From Bryobacterales bacterium F-183 (GTDB lineage: Bacteria; Acidobacteriota; Terriglobia; Bryobacterales; Bryobacteraceae): DNA of 64,000 nt. The stretch is taken from the NCBI GenBank assembly GCA_016865505.2, contig AP025252.1, positions 6,098,137 to 6,162,136 on the forward strand, read 5' to 3'. Position 1 is the stretch's first letter. Every line of letters begins with the position of its first letter. Below the pieces are notes generated by a model. It did no database searches. It was not told the origin of the DNA and was given only the letters and a program-made list of their open reading frames with translations. Both the position numbers and the translations under genes were made by a program. Of this stretch, positions 14,527-27,408 are shown one piece after another.

Positions 14527-15666
14527 TTATTTCTTTGCTGAGGTGGAGTCGAGGAGAGAGCGGAAGTCGTCGAACAGATAGTGCGAGTCGTGCGGACCGG
14601 GCGCGGCCTCGGGGTGGTACTGCACGCTGAACACGGGGTGGTTCTTCAACCGGAAACCTTCCAGAGTCTGGTCATTCAGGTTGATGTGCGTGAGTTCCAC
14701 TTCGCTCGACGGGAGCGAATCCGGATCGACACAAAACCCATGGTTTTGCGCCGTGATTTCGACGCGCTGAGTCTTGTAATTCAACACCGGATGGTTGCCG
14801 CCGCGATGTCCGAACTTGAGTTTGAAGGTCTTGCCGCCACAGGCGAGGCCAAGCACCTGCTGGCCAAGACAGATGCCAAACATCGGCACGTCTTTTTCGA
14901 TTAGCTTGCGGACCTGCGCGGCCTGCGCTTCCAGCGGCTCAGGGTCGCCGGGACCGTTGCTCAAGAAGACGCCGTCCGGATTGAGCGCCAGGACATCTTC
15001 GGCAGAGGTCATCGATGGAACGACCGTTACACGGCAGCCGATGCTCGCCAGGCGGCGCAGGATGTTGCGCTTGATACCGAAGTCGTACGCGACGATGTGC
15101 TTATCGAGTTCCTTGGCACTTTTGACAAGTTGTGAAGGAGAACACGGCTCCACCTGCTGCGTCCACTCATACGCCTGTGTAGTGGAAACGCGCGAGGCGA
15201 GGTCGAGGCCGGCCATCGAGGGTGCGCTCTTGGCCTTTTCCACAAGACGTTCCAGATTCGAAATATCTGTGGAAAGTACGCCACGCATCACGCCCTGGCT
15301 GCGAAGTTTGCGTACCAGCGATCGTGTATCCATGTCGCCGCCGACGGGGATGCCGTTGCGCGTCAAAAATTCCTGCGCGCTCTCATCCGCTCGCCAGTTG
15401 CTGGAAATAGGGGAAAAATCGCGAACGATCAGCCCTTCGATAAAGGGCTTTGAGGATTCGCAGTCCTCGGCATTAGCGCCATAATTGCCGATCTGCGGGT
15501 TGGTGAGAACAATGATCTGACCGGCGTAGGAAGGATCGGTGAAGATTTCCTGGTAACCGGTAATGGATGTATTGAAAACGACCTCGCCAACGCGCTCTAC
15601 AGGCGCACCAAAGCTTGCGCCTTCGAAGACAGTTCCGTCTTCCAAGGCCAGGACCGCTTTTATCAA
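14527..15666 (-). CDS. carA: Carbamoyl-phosphate synthase small subunit
   Basis: A 379-residue glutamine amidotransferase subunit that supplies ammonia to CarB. The N-terminal domain has ALEDGTVFEGASFG and FNTSITGYQEIFTDPSY. The class I glutaminase domain holds the nucleophile in FGICLGQQVLGLA near residue 247 and the partner histidine in VQYHPEAAPGPHD near 355. The start is a TTG at 15666, with GAGGAA immediately before it and GGAGG 12 nt upstream. No better in-frame ATG lies nearby. Confidence 0.96.
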   Translation of the reverse strand: MIKAVLALEDGTVFEGASFGAPVERVGEVVFNTSITGYQEIFTDPSYAGQIIVLTNPQIGNYGANAEDCESSKPFIEGLIVRDFSPISSNWRADESAQEFLTRNGIPVGGDMDTRSLVRKLRSQGVMRGVLSTDISNLERLVEKAKSAPSMAGLDLASRVSTTQAYEWTQQVEPCSPSQLVKSAKELDKHIVAYDFGIKRNILRRLASIGCRVTVVPSMTSAEDVLALNPDGVFLSNGPGDPEPLEAQAAQVRKLIEKDVPMFGICLGQQVLGLACGGKTFKLKFGHRGGNHPVLNYKTQRVEITAQNHGFCVDPDSLPSSEVELTHINLNDQTLEGFRLKNHPVFSVQYHPEAAPGPHDSHYLFDDFRSLLDSTSAKK

Positions 15667-15757
15667 TTCCTCTTAGATCCTCCGGGGTGGGTTTCCGTGT
15701 GGGGGAGTAACCCTTATTGGAACACGCAGGGGAGCGGTGGGGCAAGGCGGCGTACAC

Positions 15758-15765
15758 TGTATAGT
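15758..15765. promoter_or_regulatory. Overlapping divergent -10 boxes between carA and the U32 gene
   Basis: The plus strand reads TATAGT (15760-15765) only 4 nt before the GTG at 15770, which would give an almost leaderless U32 transcript. The minus strand reads TATACA (15763-15758), which would give carA a leader of about 85 nt. No convincing -35 box was found for either, so this is tentative. Confidence 0.3.
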
Positions 15766-15769
15766 TAAC

Positions 15770-16786
15770 GTGAAAATTCTCGCGCCCATCCGTGAGTTCG
15801 ACGAATTAGAGATGCTGGCGGCCGCTGGAGCCGAAGAATTGTACTGCGGCGTGGTGCCTCGCGAGTGGACCGCGAAGTTCCCAGGCGCGCTGTGGTTGAA
15901 TCGGCGCGCGGCTGCAAGTTCAGGCCTCGATTCGTTTGCAGAGTTGCGCAGACTTCGCGATGCAGCACATGCGCGCGACCTGCCGCTATTCGTGACGTTG
16001 AACGCACCGACGTACGGTCCCGATCAATTGCCGATGGTGCAGGACCTGGCGCAGCGCATGTCTGAAGAAGGCGGCGTCGATGCGCTGATTGTGTCCGATC
16101 TCAACCTCATCGCGCTGCTGAGCGAAGCCGGCTTGCACGCGCAATTGCATGTGAGTTCTGTCGCGGCGACGTTGAATACCGAGGCCGTTGGTTTTCTCAA
16201 AGACTTTGGCGTAACACGCGTGGTGCTGCCGCGCAGCGTGACCTTGGATGAGATTCGCGGTGTGACGACTGCGCATCCTGACCTCGAGATCGAGGTCTTT
16301 TTGTTGAACGACGGCTGCGCGTTTGAAGAAGGCTTTTGTTCGACGACGCATCATCATTCGGTGGGCGCATTCTGTACGAATCTTTCCACCATGAAGGCCG
16401 ATTTTGAATGGTACGGACCGCGGTACACGTCGCGCCGGGAACGCTGGTTGCGGCAGAATCTAGCCGATTATCGGGAATGGGTCTGGTACGTCAACGGCAA
16501 TGGCTGCGGGGCTACGGCAAAGGGCTTGCCGTATGGACCTTGCGGGCTGTGTGCGATTCCCGATCTGCAAAAGATGGGCGTCGCGTCGTTGAAAATCGTC
16601 GGACGTGAAGCGTCGCCATTCCGCAAACTGGCGTCGGTGAAGATGGCGGCGGACATCGTGAAGCGCACGCGTGAAGCCGTGCCGAAGTTGCATGTGATCG
16701 AGCGGGCGAAATCGTTGCGGCAGGAGCCGGAACATTGCAACGCCGGGTACATGTGCTACTACAAGGTCGACCCTCTTGCTCACTGA
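15770..16786 (+). CDS. U32 family peptidase-like protein
   Basis: About 338 residues, counted from the GTG at 15770 (MKILAPIREFDELE), which fits the family start better than the upstream ATG. It has the TIM-barrel of U32 proteins: AAAGAEELYCGV, FVTLNAP, VDALIVSDLNLIALL and LHVSSVAATLNTEAV. The conserved cysteine regions are NDGCAFEEGFC, GNGCGATAKGLPYGPCGLC and EHCNAGYMC. Several U32 members (RlhA, TrhP, UbiU/V) are Fe-S RNA- or quinone-hydroxylating factors rather than proteases, so a cysteine-bound cluster is plausible here. The gene overlaps the ABC exporter by 11 nt. Confidence 0.85.
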   Translation: MKILAPIREFDELEMLAAAGAEELYCGVVPREWTAKFPGALWLNRRAAASSGLDSFAELRRLRDAAHARDLPLFVTLNAPTYGPDQLPMVQDLAQRMSEEGGVDALIVSDLNLIALLSEAGLHAQLHVSSVAATLNTEAVGFLKDFGVTRVVLPRSVTLDEIRGVTTAHPDLEIEVFLLNDGCAFEEGFCSTTHHHSVGAFCTNLSTMKADFEWYGPRYTSRRERWLRQNLADYREWVWYVNGNGCGATAKGLPYGPCGLCAIPDLQKMGVASLKIVGREASPFRKLASVKMAADIVKRTREAVPKLHVIERAKSLRQEPEHCNAGYMCYYKVDPLAH

Positions 16787-18407
16787 GTACCGCAAGGTCC
16801 TCCCGTATCTCTATCCACATTGGCGTTCGCTGCTGACGGTTATCGCGATTGGTTTGGTCGCGACCTTGAGCGGGCTTGCACAACCTTGGCTCACGCGCGA
16901 TTTGATTGACGGCGCACTGCTACGCAGGGACTTTGATGCGCTGTTGCGCGTGTCTGTCCTGCTGGTGTTGATCACGGTGGTGGGGTTCGTATTGAACGCC
17001 GCGTCGTCGTATCTGTACACCAAGGTGTCCGCGCAAGTGCTGTTCGACATGCGGCTCGCGCTGTACCGGCATTTGCTATTGCTGCCGCCGTCCTTCTTTG
17101 CGCGGACACGCACGGGCGAAATCGTGTCGCGTATGAACAGCGACATCGGCGAAGTACAGCGCGTGTCCAGCGATGCGCTGTTCTCGATACTGTCGAACGT
17201 GATCTTTCTGATTGGCAGCACGTACCTGATGGTGTACTTGAACGCGCGGCTGTTTGCGGTGTCGGTGGCGCTGCTGCCCATCAGCATTTGGGCGGTGCGG
17301 CGTTATCAGGGCCGTTTAGCGAAGCATGTCGAGACGCTGCGCCAGAAGTCCGCCGATATTGGCAGTTTCCTGATCGAATCGCTGATGGGCGTACGCCTGA
17401 TTGTGAGCCATGTTCGTGAGGAACAGCAGAGTGTGGCGTTTCGCGGGCATAACAGCGGGTTTGTCGATGCGTTGCTGCGTATGCAGTTGACCTCGTACAT
17501 GGCGGGTGCGATTCCGGGTACTGTGTTGACGCTATCGACCGCGTCCGTGTTTTTGTACGGCGGCAAACTGGTGATCGACGGCGAACTCACCATCGGTGGA
17601 CTGATGGCGTTCTTGGCGTACCACATGCGGCTGCTGGCGCCGGTACAGAATCTGATGGGCATCTACTCGAGCCTGGTGACGGGAGCGGTGTCGCTCAGCA
17701 GGGTCGCGGCGCTGTTCGACACCAAGCCCGCTGTTTCGGACGAAGGGACACGACGGCTGGAGCACTGCCAAGGCGCTCTTGAGCTACGCAATGTGACGTT
17801 TGCATATGGCGAGAAACAGGTTCTGCACCACGTGAACGTGCAGGTTCCGGCGGGCAAGGTGACGGTACTGTTGGGGCCGAGCGGGTCCGGCAAAACGACG
17901 ATCGCAGATTTGATGATTCGCTTGTATGACCCGGTGTCCGGGGCCGTGCTGCTGGACGGTGTGGATCTGCGCGAATACCGGTTGGCGGACGTACGACAGC
18001 ATGTGGCGATGGTGGAGCAGTTGCCATTCCTGATGCATGCATCGATTGCGGAGAACTTGCGGTTCGCTGCGCCGGAGGCTTCCGATGAAGAGTTGCGCCA
18101 GGCTGCCGCCGACGCACAAATCGACGCGTTTATTGAGCGGCTGCCCGAAGGGTACGCAACGATTGCCGGCGAGCGCGGATTATCGGTTTCGGCAGGCGAG
18201 CGGCAGAGGCTTGCCCTGGCTCGTACGCTGCTCAGGAATCCATCGGTGTTGATCTTGGACGAGCCGACGTCGGCGCTCGATGCGGATACGGAAGCGGCGC
18301 TGGTGGCTAGTGTACGGCGGCGGTTGCCCGAGGCAACGATCCTGATCATTACGCATCGCCGGGATCTGGCCGCGATTGCCGATCATGTGCTGACGCCTTT
18401 TGGATGA
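16776..18407 (+). CDS. ABC exporter, fused permease and ATPase
   Basis: A 543-residue half-transporter. The N-terminal six-helix exporter domain (about residues 15-300) includes the family's TGEIVSRMNSDIGEVQ intracellular loop. The ATPase has Walker A LGPSGSGKTT near residue 368, a Q-loop in VAMVEQLPF, signature LSVSAGERQR, Walker B VLILDEPTSALD and an H-loop IITHRR. It would act as a homodimer exporting an unknown lipid, drug or peptide. The start is a TTG inside the end of the U32 gene, suggesting translational coupling. The LSVSAGE signature departs mildly from LSGGQ. Confidence 0.9.
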   Translation: MLTEYRKVLPYLYPHWRSLLTVIAIGLVATLSGLAQPWLTRDLIDGALLRRDFDALLRVSVLLVLITVVGFVLNAASSYLYTKVSAQVLFDMRLALYRHLLLLPPSFFARTRTGEIVSRMNSDIGEVQRVSSDALFSILSNVIFLIGSTYLMVYLNARLFAVSVALLPISIWAVRRYQGRLAKHVETLRQKSADIGSFLIESLMGVRLIVSHVREEQQSVAFRGHNSGFVDALLRMQLTSYMAGAIPGTVLTLSTASVFLYGGKLVIDGELTIGGLMAFLAYHMRLLAPVQNLMGIYSSLVTGAVSLSRVAALFDTKPAVSDEGTRRLEHCQGALELRNVTFAYGEKQVLHHVNVQVPAGKVTVLLGPSGSGKTTIADLMIRLYDPVSGAVLLDGVDLREYRLADVRQHVAMVEQLPFLMHASIAENLRFAAPEASDEELRQAAADAQIDAFIERLPEGYATIAGERGLSVSAGERQRLALARTLLRNPSVLILDEPTSALDADTEAALVASVRRRLPEATILIITHRRDLAAIADHVLTPFG

Positions 18408-18451: not shown

Positions 18452-19009
18452 ATGTCCAACTCTTTCTCGCTGCTCGAAACCAATATCTTGAAGGCCAAAG
18501 GGCTGGCTGACGCTCAGATCGCAGCACTGGTGGAGGCTGGCGTGAATAGCCGCGAGGCGTTTCAAACCGTGGGCAGCGCCGCGACCTTGCTCGAACTGAT
18601 GCCCGGCCTGGATGCGGGTGTCGCACAAAAGGTGATGGAGTGGGCCGTAGGCGCCTCCACCGCCTCCGCGCCGCAGGTTGGCGGACCCAACATCGTGCTC
18701 GACACGTCCGATGTTGTGTACTGCGTGCATTGCGGCGCCAAGCAACCGAAGGACTACAAGTCCGGCGACCTCTGTTCGTCCTGCGGCCGGCAGGCGGAAC
18801 CGATTCTTTCGTGCCACTGGTGTTCCGCTTCCGGACCCGGAAAGTTCTGCAGGTCATGCGGGGCAGAGTTTGTGGCGCCTGCTGAGTACGATCTGGCGTT
18901 ACTGCTGAAGCGCGAAGGGCTGCCCAAGGATGAGATCGCAACCCGGCTGAAGAACATGGCGGCAGTTGAAAAAGACCAATTGTGGGGACGTATTCGCCGG
19001 TCTCGATGA
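18452..19009 (+). CDS. Double zinc-ribbon protein of unknown function (small partner)
   Basis: A 185-residue protein. Residues 1-65 are helical with a helix-hairpin-helix-like rhythm (LADAQIAALVEAGVNSREAF, LLELMPGLDAGVAQKVMEW). Residues 86-138 carry eight cysteines as four CxxC-type pairs (CVHC, CSSC, CHWC, CRSC), a double zinc ribbon. The end is a charged helix (LLLKREGLPKDEIATRLK). The zinc ribbon plus following helix is clearly related to the N terminus of the next gene, so the two arose by duplication. A GAGG site precedes the ATG and a TATATAGT element lies upstream. The stop overlaps the next start (ATGA). Confidence 0.75.
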   Translation: MSNSFSLLETNILKAKGLADAQIAALVEAGVNSREAFQTVGSAATLLELMPGLDAGVAQKVMEWAVGASTASAPQVGGPNIVLDTSDVVYCVHCGAKQPKDYKSGDLCSSCGRQAEPILSCHWCSASGPGKFCRSCGAEFVAPAEYDLALLLKREGLPKDEIATRLKNMAAVEKDQLWGRIRRSR

Positions 19010-20916
19010 TCTATACCACCGCGGTCTGCGAATCCTGTAGCAAGCCTCAACCGAAGGACTGGCAAGCCGGACAACTTTGCATCCACTGCGGCAATGCCGT
19101 ACGACGCGACGTACGCTGCTTCTGGTGCGTCCACTGGACTCCAGACGCCAAGTACTGCCGCAAATGCGGTGCCGATGTGATCGACCCGGAGCTGTTCGGC
19201 GTCGCCCGCATGTTGAAGGACGCAGGTACGGACCGGTTTACGATCCCAAAGCTCATCGGCGAGTTTGATGAGGGCCGGATTGCGACGTTCCGGTCGCTTT
19301 ACCTGGCACAGGCGGCGGTTGTCGAGGCCCATGTCGCGGACCTGCGGCGAGTCGAGTCCCACTTGTTGCAGCAGCATTGGAGTGGCGAGTTGGAAGAAGA
19401 GCTGGTCGGGCAACTGCCTTGGCCGGAGCGGCAGATTCCACATCACAAGCGGAGCGAGACGCTCGCCGAGTTGGCGGAGTGTACACCCTTTGCGCGTACG
19501 CGAAATCTTGCTCAGCTAGCCCGCCTGCGCATCGGCGATCTGGCCGCCTACGATGCCGCAAGCAACGCGCTATACGACCCCGATCCGCATGTCCAGGAAG
19601 AGGCCGCACTGACGTTGACGGGATGGCGCGTCGTGCAGGCGTATGGAAGTCCGCGAGGGAGTGAAGCGTTGCTCGAAGGCCTGCTGCAGGGCAGCAAGTT
19701 TCGGGAGCAGGCAACGGTGCGGCTTGCCTATGTGTTCTCACGACGCCATTCCTTGCCGCGCGAACTGCTGGGGTCAGCGGACCCCGACGTTGCGTTTACG
19801 GCGGCCTTAGCTAGCGGTGATCAGGACATTCTGGCGGCCGCTGCGACAGATCTGCATCGCGACGAACCCGCCCGATTTGCGGCCTGTAACAGGCTGGCGT
19901 TTGACGGTCCCTTGGGCGTCGCACTGGGAACATCCCTCGCCACACTAACGCCGGAACATCAGGTGACGGTGCTGGACACTATTGTGCGGCGCAAGGTGCC
20001 GGCGCATGGCCTGGTTCGCCTGCTCCTGCAGTTGGCGGAAGCAACTTTTGACGACAAGGTGCGGCAGCGCGCCATTTTGGTGTTGTGCCGCGAGATGAGT
20101 TACGAAACGGCGATGGCGGTGATTCCCTATGCAATGGAAGACACCAGCATCACCGCGGATTTATTGCGGTCCGGCATGCCGCCGGAGGCTCTGGCGGTGT
20201 TCGGGGAACGGCTGGTGGACGCAAGCAAGTTCGGCGAATCGACCTGGGGCTTAAATGCCGCGGCGGAGCCCGGGCGGATGCCGGAGCATTTTGTCCCTGC
20301 GGTGTACACGGGGGCAAAAGACAACCGCACCAAGCGCGAACTGATCCGCTTTGCGGAGTTGCAGGCGCGGGCTCGGGACATGGATTGCCCTCTGCTGGCG
20401 AACTTTCTGGCGGAGCGATGCTTTGTCGAACCGCCAGGGGAGTTGCAGCACGAGGCATGGTCGACGATGTACCGCGTGCAGCGGCACAAATCCCATCAGG
20501 CGGTATGCCCATTCCGATTGGCGACGCCGGTGGTGGAAGAAGTGTTCGGATCGATGGACCGGTTCCTTGGCTTGCTTTGCCCCTTCCTGGAGCAAAGAGA
20601 CTGGCGCAAGGACGTGATCATCTTCGATCCGGTGGGACACTTCATCCGGTACGTGGACGAGGCGGTGTATCCGGCGATCTGCGCGTCCCGCCATGCAGAC
20701 CAGTACATCGCGGCGATTGTGAGCCTGCTGGATGATCCCGATCTGTATTCGATTGCGCGGCATAACGCGATGTACCCGCTGATCGGCATCGGCGAGCACT
20801 GCCCGGCGCGACGGCAGGAGATTATCCAACTGCTCGAACAGATCGTGGCAAGGCATCGCGATCTGGAGGGTAGTATCGAATACGCACTGCGACGGCTGCG
20901 CGGGGAATTGGGATAA
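19006..20916 (+). CDS. Zinc-ribbon protein with long HEAT-like helical body
   Basis: About 636 residues from the ATG at 19006, chosen because it forms an ATGA overlap with the preceding stop. Residues 8-62 carry eight cysteines in four CxxC pairs (CESC, CIHC, CFWC, CRKC), with the same QPKD-W/Y and GQLC spacing as its neighbour. The rest is alanine-, leucine- and arginine-rich helical sequence. Repeats such as DPDPHVQEEAALTLTGW, SADPDVAFTAALASGD and DKVRQRAILVLCREMS resemble HEAT repeats (about residues 175-400). The C-terminal third (from about 420) has no family I recognise. There is no membrane segment and no nuclease or ATPase motif, so a scaffold or sensor is possible. Confidence 0.75.
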   Translation: MIYTTAVCESCSKPQPKDWQAGQLCIHCGNAVRRDVRCFWCVHWTPDAKYCRKCGADVIDPELFGVARMLKDAGTDRFTIPKLIGEFDEGRIATFRSLYLAQAAVVEAHVADLRRVESHLLQQHWSGELEEELVGQLPWPERQIPHHKRSETLAELAECTPFARTRNLAQLARLRIGDLAAYDAASNALYDPDPHVQEEAALTLTGWRVVQAYGSPRGSEALLEGLLQGSKFREQATVRLAYVFSRRHSLPRELLGSADPDVAFTAALASGDQDILAAAATDLHRDEPARFAACNRLAFDGPLGVALGTSLATLTPEHQVTVLDTIVRRKVPAHGLVRLLLQLAEATFDDKVRQRAILVLCREMSYETAMAVIPYAMEDTSITADLLRSGMPPEALAVFGERLVDASKFGESTWGLNAAAEPGRMPEHFVPAVYTGAKDNRTKRELIRFAELQARARDMDCPLLANFLAERCFVEPPGELQHEAWSTMYRVQRHKSHQAVCPFRLATPVVEEVFGSMDRFLGLLCPFLEQRDWRKDVIIFDPVGHFIRYVDEAVYPAICASRHADQYIAAIVSLLDDPDLYSIARHNAMYPLIGIGEHCPARRQEIIQLLEQIVARHRDLEGSIEYALRRLRGELG

Positions 20917-23075: not shown

Positions 23076-23522
23076 CTAAAGGGTGATGAGGCCGCGCTCG
23101 GCGACCACTTCCCGCACCAGCAACCCAAGCCGGAGATACTCATTGAGGTCCGACGGCTTGCGGAAGTAGCGGGAGGCGCCGAGTTCGGCCGCCCGTTCCC
23201 GATCCTTGGGGGCGTTCGAAGAAGTGACGATGATGGCCGGCGTATCGCCACAGCAAGGGTGCGCGCGGAACATGGCCAGCAGTTGATCGCCGTCGCACTT
23301 TGGCAAATTCAGGTCCAGCAACAGGATGTCGGGACGTTCGGATTCGGGCAACGATTCGAGCGAGTCGAGATACTGCTTGGCTTCCGCACCGTCGGAGGCA
23401 TGAACGAGCGTATGTTCGACCTTGTATTCACGTAGCGCTTCGTGGATCAATACCACGTCACCCGGATTGTCTTCGGCCAGAAAAATCCGGATCGGTCTGC
23501 GCAATGGACTCATCCCTGACAC
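23076..23522 (-). CDS. Single-domain response regulator (Rcp1-like receiver)
   Basis: A 148-residue stand-alone receiver. The acidic pair is in IFLAEDNPGDV, the phosphoacceptor aspartate in ILLLDLNLPKCDG, the threonine/serine in IIVTSSNAP and the lysine in YFRKPSDL. The loop around LDSLESLPESERPD is typical of cyanobacterial phytochrome-type Rcp1 receivers. There is no output domain, so it signals by protein contact or phosphotransfer. The GTG start directly follows the kinase stop; an ATG three codons on is an alternative. It is the last gene of the kaiC-kinase-receiver set. Confidence 0.93.
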   Translation of the reverse strand: MSGMSPLRRPIRIFLAEDNPGDVVLIHEALREYKVEHTLVHASDGAEAKQYLDSLESLPESERPDILLLDLNLPKCDGDQLLAMFRAHPCCGDTPAIIVTSSNAPKDRERAAELGASRYFRKPSDLNEYLRLGLLVREVVAERGLITL

Positions 23523-25896
23523 CTATGCCCCCTCGACGACCGGAAGCTCAATGTGGAACGTCGAACCGACGCCGGGTTGCGACTCGGCCCAAATGCGGCC
23601 ATGGAACCGCTCCACGATTCGCCTGCAAATGGCAAGCCCAAGTCCGGTACCCGGGTAGTCGTCGCGATGTAAACGTTTGAACAAACCAAAAATACGTTCT
23701 GCCTGATCCTGCTCGAAGCCGATCCCATTGTCCTTTACCCTTATATCCCACTTCGCGCTTCGCTGCAGTACAGTGATGCAAATTTCCGGAGTAACGTCCG
23801 GTTTCCGATACTTCAAAGCGTTTGACAGCAAGTTTTGAAAGACGTGTCCAAATTGACCTTCGTCGCCAAGAACCACAGGCATCCGGTCTGGAACCAATAC
23901 ATTTGCGCCAGTCTCTTTCACTCGCCCATGCACGTTTGATAAGGCTTGTTGCACGCTGTGGGCCAAATTGGCGCGGGTCATTACCTGCTCATTCGCGGCG
24001 TGCGTTACCTGTGAGTACGTCAGTAAGTCTCGAATCAACTCCTCCATTCTGTGAACGCCGGACGAGATATATCTCGCAAAATCTGCAAATTCCTGCGTTT
24101 CGGAATGGCCCAGGCGTTTGAGCAAGAGCTGGGAATAGATGTTGATCATGCGCAGCGGTTCCTGCAGGTCATGACTCGCAACATAGGCAAACTCTTCGAG
24201 TTCCTCGTTCGCCCGGCGCAAATCATCTTCGATCTGCATTTGGCCGTCAATATCCGTATTGGTGCCGAACCAGCGGATGATGCGATTGCCCGGGTCGAGC
24301 ACGGGGGATACGCGTGTTAAGAACAGCCGGGTAGAACCGTCAGCAGCCCGTATGGGAAAAACTGACTCGAACGGTTTACCGGCACTGAGAGATTTTCTCC
24401 ACTCCGGATCGTTCGGCGCCTGACTTCCCCACCCTTCAAAATCTCCCAATTGGCGGGTCCCTGCGTAGTCCCGCCAGCGCTGGTTGTACCAAAAGATGCG
24501 GCCGTCGGCGTGCGCCATCCAGGCAAGGTTGGGCATACCATCGGCCAGTGTGCGAAATCGGGATTCGCTTTCCTGCAGTTCCGTCTCTGCGCGGGCCCGC
24601 TGGATGTACGCCCAGCAACGGTCGCTAAGGGTGGAAAGAAGTTCGATCTCGGACGCATGCCAGTTGTGCGACTCGGCGGTGTGGACGGCAAGAAGCGCAA
24701 CCAGACGGCCCTTGTCGAGGATCGGGGACACGATGGCCGCGCCGATGCCGGCCTTCTGAAATCCCAGAAGTCCATCCGTGCCCGCGAACTCGTGCTGCGC
24801 ATCCTGCACCACAAGCGGCTGTCCGGATTGCAACAGACGGATCGTACGGGAACCGAAATCCGGCAGCCAGTACACATTGCGCGAGGACGAGCCATCCAAA
24901 CGCAAGGAGTACTTGATGCGGATCGTGCTGCCGTCGGGCTCCACTTCCGCAAAGCTGCAGCGGGGGACGTGGAGTTCCGCGGCGGTCATGTCGATGATCA
25001 GGCGAATGACATCCGCAGGGTCGCTGAGGCGGCGTACGGCTTCGCTGAGTTCGTGGAGAAAGCGAAGGCGGTTGGTACGTTCCCGGGCCGTTTGCTCAGC
25101 CAGTTTCCGTTCCGTGATGTCGTTGGCCACGGACACAAAACCGCGCACCTCGCCGCTATCCGCGACGTCGGGCGCCAAAAGTACGCTCATGTCGCGAATG
25201 TCACCGCGATGATTCGCCAGGCGGGTTTCGTAGTTGACGTGCTGCCCGGAAAGAGCCTTTCCGATGTAAGCGCGTGCCAGCGAGACCCGCTCCTCGCCGC
25301 GCACCTCAATCAGCGGCTTGCCGACCACATCTCCGGCGGACATCCGGAACCAGTCCAGGTACGTACGGTTGACCCGACGGAAGATCAGGTCGCGATCGAC
25401 GTAGGCGATCAGCGCGGGTACGTTGTCCGCGATGATCTGTAGTTCCGCTTCGCGCTTACGTACCTCGTACTGTTTGCGGCGGGCACGTAGCGCGGTGTGG
25501 GCCGCGCTGAGCAAGGTGTCGGTGCGGGCGGGACGTTCGAGCAGGGCGACGCCACCAAGAGCATCGAGCCGAGCGAGGCGCTCATGCAGCGCCAGCGAAG
25601 GTTCACCACGGATAGTGAGCACCGTAATCGGTAAGCCGGCCCATGCGCCGGGCTGCGCGAGCACTTGCCGCAGCTTTTGGATGGCCTGGCCGGAGAGCGC
25701 TTCTTCCGCAATGAAGGCAGCGCCCGCACCGCGCTGTACCTCTTCGAGCAACGCATCGACCGACGGAACACACGATGGCCGGTAGATGGCCGCGCGCAAA
25801 TACTTCGCGAATCAGCATACCGTCGCGACCAACAGGAGCGTGAATGAGAATCAGCGAGTCGCGATCATGCACCAAAACGTGGTTGTACGAGGTCAT
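23523..25896 (-). CDS. Multi-sensor histidine kinase (PAS-GAF-PAS-HisKA-HATPase) with apparent frameshift near the N terminus
   Basis: The kinase frame is open from 25799 to 23523. Its domains are PAS (IIADNVPALIAYVDRDL), GAF (about residues 250-400), PAS (RFRTLADGMPNLAWMAHADG), HisKA with the histidine in AYVASHDLQEPLR, and HATPase with NLLSNALKY, DNGIGFE and GTGLGLAI. The usual N-terminal module (APVGRD, then GAGAAFIAEEAL and LPITVLT) is split. MTSYNHVLVHDRDS to about VFARGHLPAIVC is encoded from the ATG at 25896 in another frame, and SVDALLEEV onward in the kinase frame. One extra base near 25765-25775 would explain this. AAGGA precedes 25896 and the start lies inside the end of kaiC. It is either a sequence error or a real mutation. 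Confidence 0.8.
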
Positions 25897-27379
25897 TGGG
25901 GATGTCCTTTTCGTTGCCAGTGGATGCCGCATAGGTGGGAATGCCGGATAGCACTCCTTGGAAGTCACGAAGCGACTCACCCACTCGTATGCCTCCGTCG
26001 GCAAAGGTCAGTTCCCGGATACTGCGTTCATGGGGGCCGCTGCGTTTTTTCACAACAGAAATCGCCTGCCGCACGGCGCCGCGATGCTCAAAATAACGGA
26101 GCAGCAGGATCGTGTCAGACAGGTAGCTCACGTCGACGGGTGTGACCATGCCGCTCCCCAAAATGCCGTATTGGGCCAGGATCAGAATGGTGACGACACC
26201 GCAGTTGTTCAGGTAGGACAGGAGTTCGCGGAGTTGGATGTCCAGGTGGCGTTCTCCAGGCATTGCCGCGAGCAAACCGTTGATGCTATCCAGCACCAGA
26301 ACGCTTGTTTTGCGCGCTTCCACCTGCTCTCGAATGTTTTGTACGAAGTGACCTGGCGATAACTCTGCGGGGTCTACAAACTCCACTTGCAGGTTGCCGG
26401 TCTTCTGAAGGGCTGGAAGATCCACACCCAGCGAAAGAGAGCGCTCGGACAACGTACCGTAGCCTTCATCGAAGGTGATGAACATCGCATGTCCACCAGC
26501 ACGGGCAGCGTTACCTGCATACTGCATGCCGATGGAGCTTTTGCCGGCACCTGCCGGACCGACAAGCAGCGTGCTCGTGCCTCGGTTGAGTCCCCCACCG
26601 AGCAGGCTGTCGAGGTGTGGAATCCCGCTGGTGATCATTTCCGGATCGAAACGTGTGTGGTGCTGATTGGCCACCAGACGCGGATACACAGCAATGCCCC
26701 CGGTACGGATGTCGTAGTCATGGAATCCGTCTCGATACGGTACGCCGCGCAGCTTCATGATTTCCAGACGCCGCCGCTTGGTGCCGTATTCGCGAGGCAG
26801 ATTTTCGAGCCGCAAAACACCGTGGACGATGCTCTGTACATCGCGTTCTACTTCGGTCGCCGTATGGTCGTCGAGCAGCAGGACCGTAGTATCGCGCCCT
26901 GCAAAGTACTGCTTTAGGGCCAGCAACTGGCGGCGGAAGCGGAGCGATTCCCGCGCAAGCAGCCAGAGTTCGGACAACGAGTCAAAGACCACGCGGCTAG
27001 GCTGTACTGCCTCAATGCGCGACAGGATGGCCTTGATGGTGTGAGACATCTCCACCTCGCCCGGGTACAGCACCGTGTACTGCTGTTCCACCTGCAGGCT
27101 TTCTTCCATGGGCAGAAGTTCGAAAATCTCGATGCCATCCATGTTCCAGCCATGGGAATGAGCAACTTGGTGGAGTTCGCGATCGGACTCCGAGAGCGTG
27201 ATGTACAACACGCGTTCACCGCGGTTGCGGCCATCGATTAGAAATTGAAGCCCGAGCGTTGTTTTTCCTGCGCCGGGGTCGCCACTGGCGACATAGACGT
27301 GTCCGGCCGGCCAGCCACCAGCAAGGACATGATCCAGGCCCGGCACACCGGTGGAAACTGTAGGGGGCGCATCCGCCAT
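25865..27379 (-). CDS. KaiC-family double RecA-like ATPase
   Basis: About 504 residues from the ATG at 27379 (upstream ATG 27391 and TTG 27406 are alternatives). The two RecA domains each carry Walker A: GDPGAGKTTL near residue 37 and GPAGAGKSSI near 270. The catalytic region reads SESD in the first domain and TFDEGY in the second. The cyanobacterial KaiC phosphosite pair Ser-Thr aligns with Ser-Tyr (DVSYLSDT). The downstream KKRSGPHERSIRE motif is conserved. With the coupled kinase and receiver genes this forms a KaiC signalling module; no kaiA or kaiB is nearby, so a clock role is not implied. Confidence 0.93.
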   Translation of the reverse strand: MADAPPTVSTGVPGLDHVLAGGWPAGHVYVASGDPGAGKTTLGLQFLIDGRNRGERVLYITLSESDRELHQVAHSHGWNMDGIEIFELLPMEESLQVEQQYTVLYPGEVEMSHTIKAILSRIEAVQPSRVVFDSLSELWLLARESLRFRRQLLALKQYFAGRDTTVLLLDDHTATEVERDVQSIVHGVLRLENLPREYGTKRRRLEIMKLRGVPYRDGFHDYDIRTGGIAVYPRLVANQHHTRFDPEMITSGIPHLDSLLGGGLNRGTSTLLVGPAGAGKSSIGMQYAGNAARAGGHAMFITFDEGYGTLSERSLSLGVDLPALQKTGNLQVEFVDPAELSPGHFVQNIREQVEARKTSVLVLDSINGLLAAMPGERHLDIQLRELLSYLNNCGVVTILILAQYGILGSGMVTPVDVSYLSDTILLLRYFEHRGAVRQAISVVKKRSGPHERSIRELTFADGGIRVGESLRDFQGVLSGIPTYAASTGNEKDIPNDLVQPRFGA

Positions 27380-27408
27380 GACAAAACGCATCCTTTCCGG
27401 CAACAAAC

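Follow-up and report, generated by a model that had tools for sequence, protein, structure and literature searches.

A rare gene pair encoding paralogous double zinc-ribbon proteins, one with a HEAT/ARM-like superhelix, occurs in scattered bacteria of eight phyla

In a genome from the family Bryobacteraceae, we found two neighbouring genes, here called A and B, that form a real and conserved pair. The pair is made of familiar domain types and is undescribed in the libraries and literature that we searched. It is rare, yet scattered, by the labels of the records, over eight phyla.

The pair lies in genome G000 (6.28 Mb), in a stretch of 64,000 nucleotides that was analysed as a whole and is called the window below. 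Gene A (18452..19009, + strand) encodes 185 amino acid residues with an HhH2/SAM-like N-terminal domain, a double zinc ribbon, and a basic three-helix tail. Gene B (19006..20916, + strand) encodes 636 residues with a double zinc ribbon and a HEAT/ARM superhelix. As an earlier reading of the sequence alone had described, the two open reading frames share an ATGA stop/start overlap (19006..19009, + strand), with the ATG at 19006 and the TGA at 19007-19009; B could also start at an in-frame GTG at 18982.

Methods

The trees and the comparison of the A and B distance matrices used the 36 loci obtained by a peptide-pattern scan, less seven that were duplicates or fragments (L043, L066, L070, L073, L074, L076, and L078), plus the window, L115, and L132. 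The B sequence of L047 was not used, and those of L044 and L067 were drawn from the other contig of each. In the 35-locus test of signalling genes, L043, L066, L070, L073, L074, and L078 were dropped, and the window, L115, L132, L033, and L037 were added.

Conservation along B was computed on 13 of the 17 aligned rows; L046, L055, L065, and L071 were omitted as gapped fragments. Junctions between A and B were measured in the window, on a Deinococcus plasmid, and at 30 of the 32 loci with both genes on one strand, which makes 32 places, and the nearest plausible start was taken. L076 and L078 (both from G358) and G326 have broken A or B frames and were counted as adjacent from the pieces.

Results

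Domain structure of A and the question of nucleic-acid binding

The AlphaFold model of A (mean pLDDT 87.9) has helices over residues 7-66, a low-confidence linker at residues 69-84, the ribbons, and helices at residues 143-184. The N-terminal domain (residues 7-66; 18470..18649, + strand) consists of five helices, with pLDDT mostly 94-97, and is acidic (pI 4.5 for residues 1-68). The ribbons have four CxxC pairs (C91/94, C108/111, C121/124, and C133/136; 18722..18859, + strand), whose cysteines are invariant in 33/33 aligned rows, and a QPKDY motif sits between pairs 1 and 2. The three C-terminal helices (residues 143-184; 18878..19003, + strand) are basic, with a pI of 9.8.

No Pfam or NCBIfam family above its cut-off was found for A, and a PDB sequence search with A and B gave no meaningful match. 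The fold search with A gave no match at E ≤ 0.001; its top rows, from GATOR2, had a TM-score of about 0.15. In VIA-align comparisons, the N-terminal domain (residues about 2-75) resembles the N-domain of RadA/Rad51, the C-terminal repeats of NusA, and SAM domains alike, with Z of about 4-7, where values below 8 may reflect merely a common arrangement of helices. The helix-hairpin-helix-like N-terminus proposed by the sequence-only reading has support at the level of a probable fold (Z 5-7); the canonical hairpin was not found, and residues 52-54 lack the second G of the DNA-binding G-h-G.

These features bear on the possibility that the pair is bound to nucleic acid, with the HhH2 domain, ribbons, and basic tail of A binding DNA or RNA and B recruiting repair, transcription, or nucleoid proteins. 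The likeness to the RadA/Rad51 N-domain and the NusA repeats (Z about 4-6.5) argues for this, as do the ribbons of A (pI 7.7-8.7) and its tail, with a pI above 8 in 31 of 32 A relatives. Lys/Ala-rich N-terminal tails, which may resemble histone H1-like tails, occur on A of L059, L064, L071, and L132 (10466-11068) and point the same way. However, the N-domain has a pI below 6 in 25 of the 32 relatives, hairpin residue 54 is D in 19/33 rows with G absent from the six commonest residues there, the Z values are in the range of common helix arrangements, and neither A nor B reaches the cut-off of any zinc-ribbon family in Pfam. We consider this explanation unlikely.

Domain structure of B

The four CxxC pairs of B (C8/11, C25/28, C38/41, and C51/54; 19027..19167, + strand) are completely conserved, all eight cysteines being invariant in 17/17 rows. 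The cysteine pattern was also seen in 31/31 B sequences, a count that is circular for L115 and L132, whose B was located by that pattern. From residue 61 onwards, the AlphaFold model (mean pLDDT 90.8) is an all-helical superhelix (residues 61-631; 19186..20898, + strand), and the ribbons are modelled less confidently, with block means of 50-91. Pfam HEAT_2 scores 29.3 bits at residues 166-233, above its cut-off of 27.7; nothing beyond HEAT_2 was above the cut-off in Pfam or NCBIfam. Both the match and the model bear out the HEAT-like body that had been proposed. In the fold search, many HEAT/ARM proteins, mostly protein binders, were matched at TM of about 0.2-0.3, with no specific closer relative among them, and this likeness is uninformative on the partner of B.

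Among 13 full-length B proteins, 25 of the 36 invariant columns fall within residues 8-99. The commonest residue of a column has on average a share of 0.67 in residues 1-120 and of 0.48 in residues 121-636. In Bacteroidota, B is longer (1264-1298 residues in the four measured). The superhelix is less conserved than the ribbon module and varies in length. A short extra C-terminal domain, with a pattern near TL-x-x-Y...DVMALF...W...CA-x-W, was observed on B of L056, L057, L064, and L077 (two Myxococcota, one planctomycete, and one acidobacterium); Pfam had no match to it in the three members scanned.

A shared ribbon-and-helix module and its history

Residues 91-162 of A and 8-80 of B are 37% identical (BLASTP, E 9e-15), and the profile-profile comparison (99.6%, E 4.5e-24, 88 columns) takes in the helix after the ribbons. 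The ribbon-plus-helix modules of A and B are therefore homologous, and in each of the two proteins this module is where conservation is highest. The same four-pair layout noted before in both proteins was found nowhere else in six frames of the whole 64-kb window, and in 0/4000 shuffled sequences of A or B. In comparisons with the same-genus genome G276, dN is 0.092 and dS 1.08 for A (173 codons), and dN is 0.248 and dS 1.31 for B (636 codons); both genes are under purifying selection.

In the joint tree of the modules (85 columns), the 32 A and 31 B sequences were split by one branch with an SH-aLRT of 100; six of the 60 inner branches were starred, and the remainder were poorly resolved. As A and B lie on opposite sides of one branch, the duplication is older than the spread over eight phyla. 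The claim that one protein arose from the other thus held with respect to paralogy; its direction, with the two families on the two sides of one branch, did not. In the tree of A, the four Bacteroidota rows formed one clade, and Acidobacteriota, Planctomycetota, and Myxococcota were intermixed, with support too weak to establish transfer. Distances among the A proteins were correlated with those among the B proteins (r 0.675, n 31, 0/2000 permutations as high, with relatedness uncontrolled).

Distribution of the pair

The B query was positive in 12 of the 237 genomes of the family Bryobacteraceae (8/76 genera among well-completed genomes), and the A profile gave the identical 12. In the phylum sample, B was found in 1/199 and A in 1/396, the positive being G000 itself in both cases. 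Within a single class of Bacteroidota the count was 1/295, namely the genome on which the sample was centred, and six of 193 Myxococcota were positive, including two genomes used to enter the group.

The peptide-pattern scan of contigs from 84,980 species demanded exact short patterns, so the 36 A loci that it gave are a lower bound; twelve of them belong to 11 of the 12 positive genomes of the family. By the labels of the records, most of which are metagenome bins that may include alien contigs, these loci come from Acidobacteria, Armatimonadetes, Planctomycetota, Actinomycetes, Myxococcota/Deltaproteobacteria, Bacteroidota, and Marinobacter. An eighth phylum was added by a Deinococcus plasmid, the single positive among 72,556 plasmid records. 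On this plasmid (L115, Deinococcus sp. AJ005), A and B form a pair, both annotated as hypothetical, beside catalase, Dps-type, and two-component genes. A scan of the contig collection with a single B sequence gave nothing. No phage record among 50,697 searched with A was positive, and the pattern scan of IMG/VR viral contigs gave no match.

Gene order and junctions

B comes after A, with both genes on one strand, at 32 of the 36 loci, including L076 and L078 with their broken frames. In L059, B is adjacent to A in convergent orientation; L070 is cut by the contig end; in L044 and L067, B is outside the fetched stretch and present elsewhere in both genomes. The two genes are adjacent in 11 of the 12 positive genomes of the family, far apart in Marinobacter and in G255, and convergent in two Myxococcota. 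Co-translation is thus not required. All six A-positive Myxococcota also carry B, and none of the 19 distinct positive genomes (12 from the family, one from Bacteroidota, and six from Myxococcota) has A or B alone, with the proviso that a too-diverged B would escape the profiles. The conserved pairing that the sequence-only reading had named as the test of a two-component system was therefore recovered in the neighbourhood survey: the genes are adjacent at most loci, and every A-positive genome checked has B.

The junction is a gap of 0 to 45 bases at 26 of the 32 places measured; overlaps were found at five (-4, -4, -1, -23, and -8), and one gap is +97. An ATGA overlap can be assigned with certainty to the window and L043 alone, both from one genus; in L071, an alternative TTG start gives a junction of -4. 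Since most junctions are gaps and two Myxococcota have convergent genes, the proposal that the ATGA overlap implies a stoichiometric complex is not sustained.

Two genomes yielded additional copies. In G326, a second B gene (L037, 16527-17741 of G326:C224) lies at a contig end, with no A upstream in the 17.7 kb fetched, downstream of genes that on inspection of their sequences are kinase- and caspase-like. In G276, two A copies (L070 and L004) lie on contig ends of one genome bin, with pS of 0.26 over their overlap; they reflect either a recent duplication or mixed strains.

The exceptions to adjacency could mean that A and B are loosely linked and have separate jobs, their adjacency being a remnant of an ancient tandem duplication. 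The split genes of Marinobacter and G255, the convergent genes of two Myxococcota, and the lone second B of G326 are what this would lead one to expect. It is nevertheless highly unlikely in our judgement, as the 19 positive genomes, including those with unlinked genes, all have both.

Neighbouring genes

No neighbour common to all phyla was seen across the A-B loci. In Bacteroidota, as identified by gene clusters, a DUF1266 gene and then a TPR gene follow B in 7/7 loci (four genera, one clade). In L062, the sole Bacteroidota locus scanned with Pfam, these gave PF06889 at E 7e-13 and TPR_19 at E 5e-9. DUF1266 was also found in the genomes of L061 and L072. In the 19 A-B genomes searched, DUF1266 was present in three, the one in Marinobacter not being beside the pair, and it is missing from the window's genome. 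In 7/7 Bacteroidota loci, genes for a TPR histidine kinase and a NarL-type regulator are at most four genes from the pair, on either side. In L060, B overlaps at its end with a gene for a response regulator, after which comes a kinase gene.

Signalling genes as general partners of the pair were rejected. The per-gene excess over 35 loci was 16/174 in the flanks versus 18/284 in the others (p 0.17), and 12/152 versus 13/258 (p 0.17) without Bacteroidota. A first permutation had given 14 of 25 loci versus a mean of 6.8 (sd 1.75; 0/2000 as high), and is unreliable because a position drawn at random close to a contig end has fewer genes around it. The signalling link is kept just as a feature of Bacteroidota.

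Alternatively, the pair could be a mobile accessory system that has a two-component control of its own and serves in stress or inter-bacterial conflict. Its patchy occurrence over eight phyla, the plasmid copy beside catalase and Dps-type genes, the kinase and regulator in all seven Bacteroidota loci, and the overlapping regulator of L060 are consistent with such a system. We regard it as quite improbable, as the signalling excess was not significant with or without Bacteroidota, no match was found in PADLOC (E up to 1), in PHROG at better than E 0.15, in 50,697 phage records (A), or in IMG/VR by pattern scan, and no toxin-like cargo was recognised.

Other neighbours were examined among the 556 called genes of 42 A/B loci. 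A phmmer search (E up to 1e-3) with HscC and the J-domain of DjlC gave nothing for the J-domain and a single Hsp70 match, at a distance of 11 genes from the pair. In the window, a peptidase-like gene, presumably of the U32 type, overlaps an ABC exporter gene (15737-18407) upstream of A. These two were rejected as parts of the system: in L070, a same-genus contig, A follows the relative of the window gene at 14527-15666, which we take to be carA, and neither of the two lies between them. None of the 556 genes is related to the peptidase-like gene, and those related to the ABC gene are five or more genes away from the pair. In the window, genes for a response regulator, a PAS histidine kinase, and an ATPase that we assume from its sequence to be KaiC-like lie in a row at 23076-27406.

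Discussion

Comparison with known families and systems

With their four conserved CxxC pairs, A and B are putative double zinc ribbons in a broad sense. The Pfam family DZR (PF12773) likewise has four CxxC pairs, and both would presumably form two zinc sites; its cut-off is 27.3 bits, and A (17.0) and B (13.7) are both below it. They differ from PF12773 in having their own QPxD motif and the homologous helix after the ribbons. The body of B is a superhelix of the same type as in HEAT/ARM scaffolds (HEAT_2, PF13646; PP2A PR65 and importins), but B differs in carrying ribbons at its N-terminus and in having a paralogue as its dedicated partner. The N-domain of A resembles HhH2/SAM-like domains such as those of RadA/Rad51 and NusA, but is acidic in most relatives and lacks the canonical G-h-G.

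In Escherichia coli K-12, ybeR and ybeU, which encode DUF1266 proteins, overlap with djlB and djlC, which encode J-proteins, next to hscC. What this locus has in common with A-B is DUF1266 together with helical-repeat and protein-handling genes, and this applies to the Bacteroidota version alone. No ribbon pair is annotated in the hscC stretch of E. coli K-12, and neither B nor the Bacteroidota TPR protein shows likeness to DjlB or DjlC. In Dickeya, according to one published study, hscC, a J-protein, and a DUF1266 protein have consecutive locus numbers [PMC6329079].

The searches of Pfam, NCBIfam, PADLOC-DB 2.0.0 (no defence family for either protein at E ≤ 1), and PHROG (none better than E 0.15) gave no characterised family matching both proteins, and no catalytic domain was recognised in either. 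Among the open-access literature matches listed, none describes the A-B pair; a description in other wording or in another venue would escape such a search. Much of the sequence-only reading, which had put forward a candidate for an undescribed two-component system, was thus upheld: the paralogous ribbons, the HEAT body, the pairing, and the lack of a family naming A or the pair all stand, the HhH-like N-domain is supported as a probable fold, and stoichiometry inferred from the overlap and the direction of the duplication do not.

An adaptor pair as the preferred explanation

The domains of A and B, their homology, their conservation, and their co-inheritance were observed directly. On these we base a tentative explanation, the one we prefer though we give it somewhat less than an even chance, that A and B form, as its two subunits, an adaptor or scaffold that lies in the cytosol, has no catalytic activity, and is joined via the sister modules. 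The correlated distances of A and B, the protein-binding nature of most fold matches of B, and the DUF1266 and TPR genes of Bacteroidota also speak for it. Paralogues of an ancestral self-associating module often form heteromers. The ribbon-helix modules of A and B would accordingly pack together into a heteromer; as conservation peaks in them, they are the natural contact between the two proteins. The variable superhelix of B may hold a client protein, and the acidic N-domain and basic tail of A may dock the complex on the machinery or nucleoprotein acted upon. In Bacteroidota, the same core would be enlarged by the DUF1266 and TPR proteins.

The job of the adaptor would preferably be protein handling, such as the assembly, chaperoning, or regulation of a client. 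It has a slight edge over DNA or RNA binding, given that the HhH2 domain is acidic and non-canonical and that DUF1266 and TPR proteins come in addition. Several observations count against the adaptor explanation: in the 42 loci no Hsp70 or J-protein gene adjoins the pair, DUF1266 is missing in the window's genome, neither the TPR protein nor B is like DjlB or DjlC, the link to signalling genes fails over all loci, the ATGA overlap is limited to one genus, the two genes are convergent or far apart in some genomes, and G326 has a lone second B.

A bolder form of this adaptor explanation, which we think somewhat doubtful, is an undescribed, ancient two-subunit machine, in which one duplicated zinc-ribbon-helix module would bear a recognition domain on one copy and a client-holding superhelix on the other. 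Such an obligate pair would have been handed on between eight or more phyla, and would have acquired two-component wiring and two scaffold proteins in Bacteroidota.

Conclusions

A has no curated family, B is known just by its HEAT repeats, and the cores of both are small enough to express. The DUF1266 protein of the Bacteroidota operon, from a family of unknown function that occurs with Hsp70 and J-proteins in E. coli, offers a handle on the job of A-B. Paralogues that occur together in eight phyla, even when their genes are unlinked, are good candidates for physical partners.
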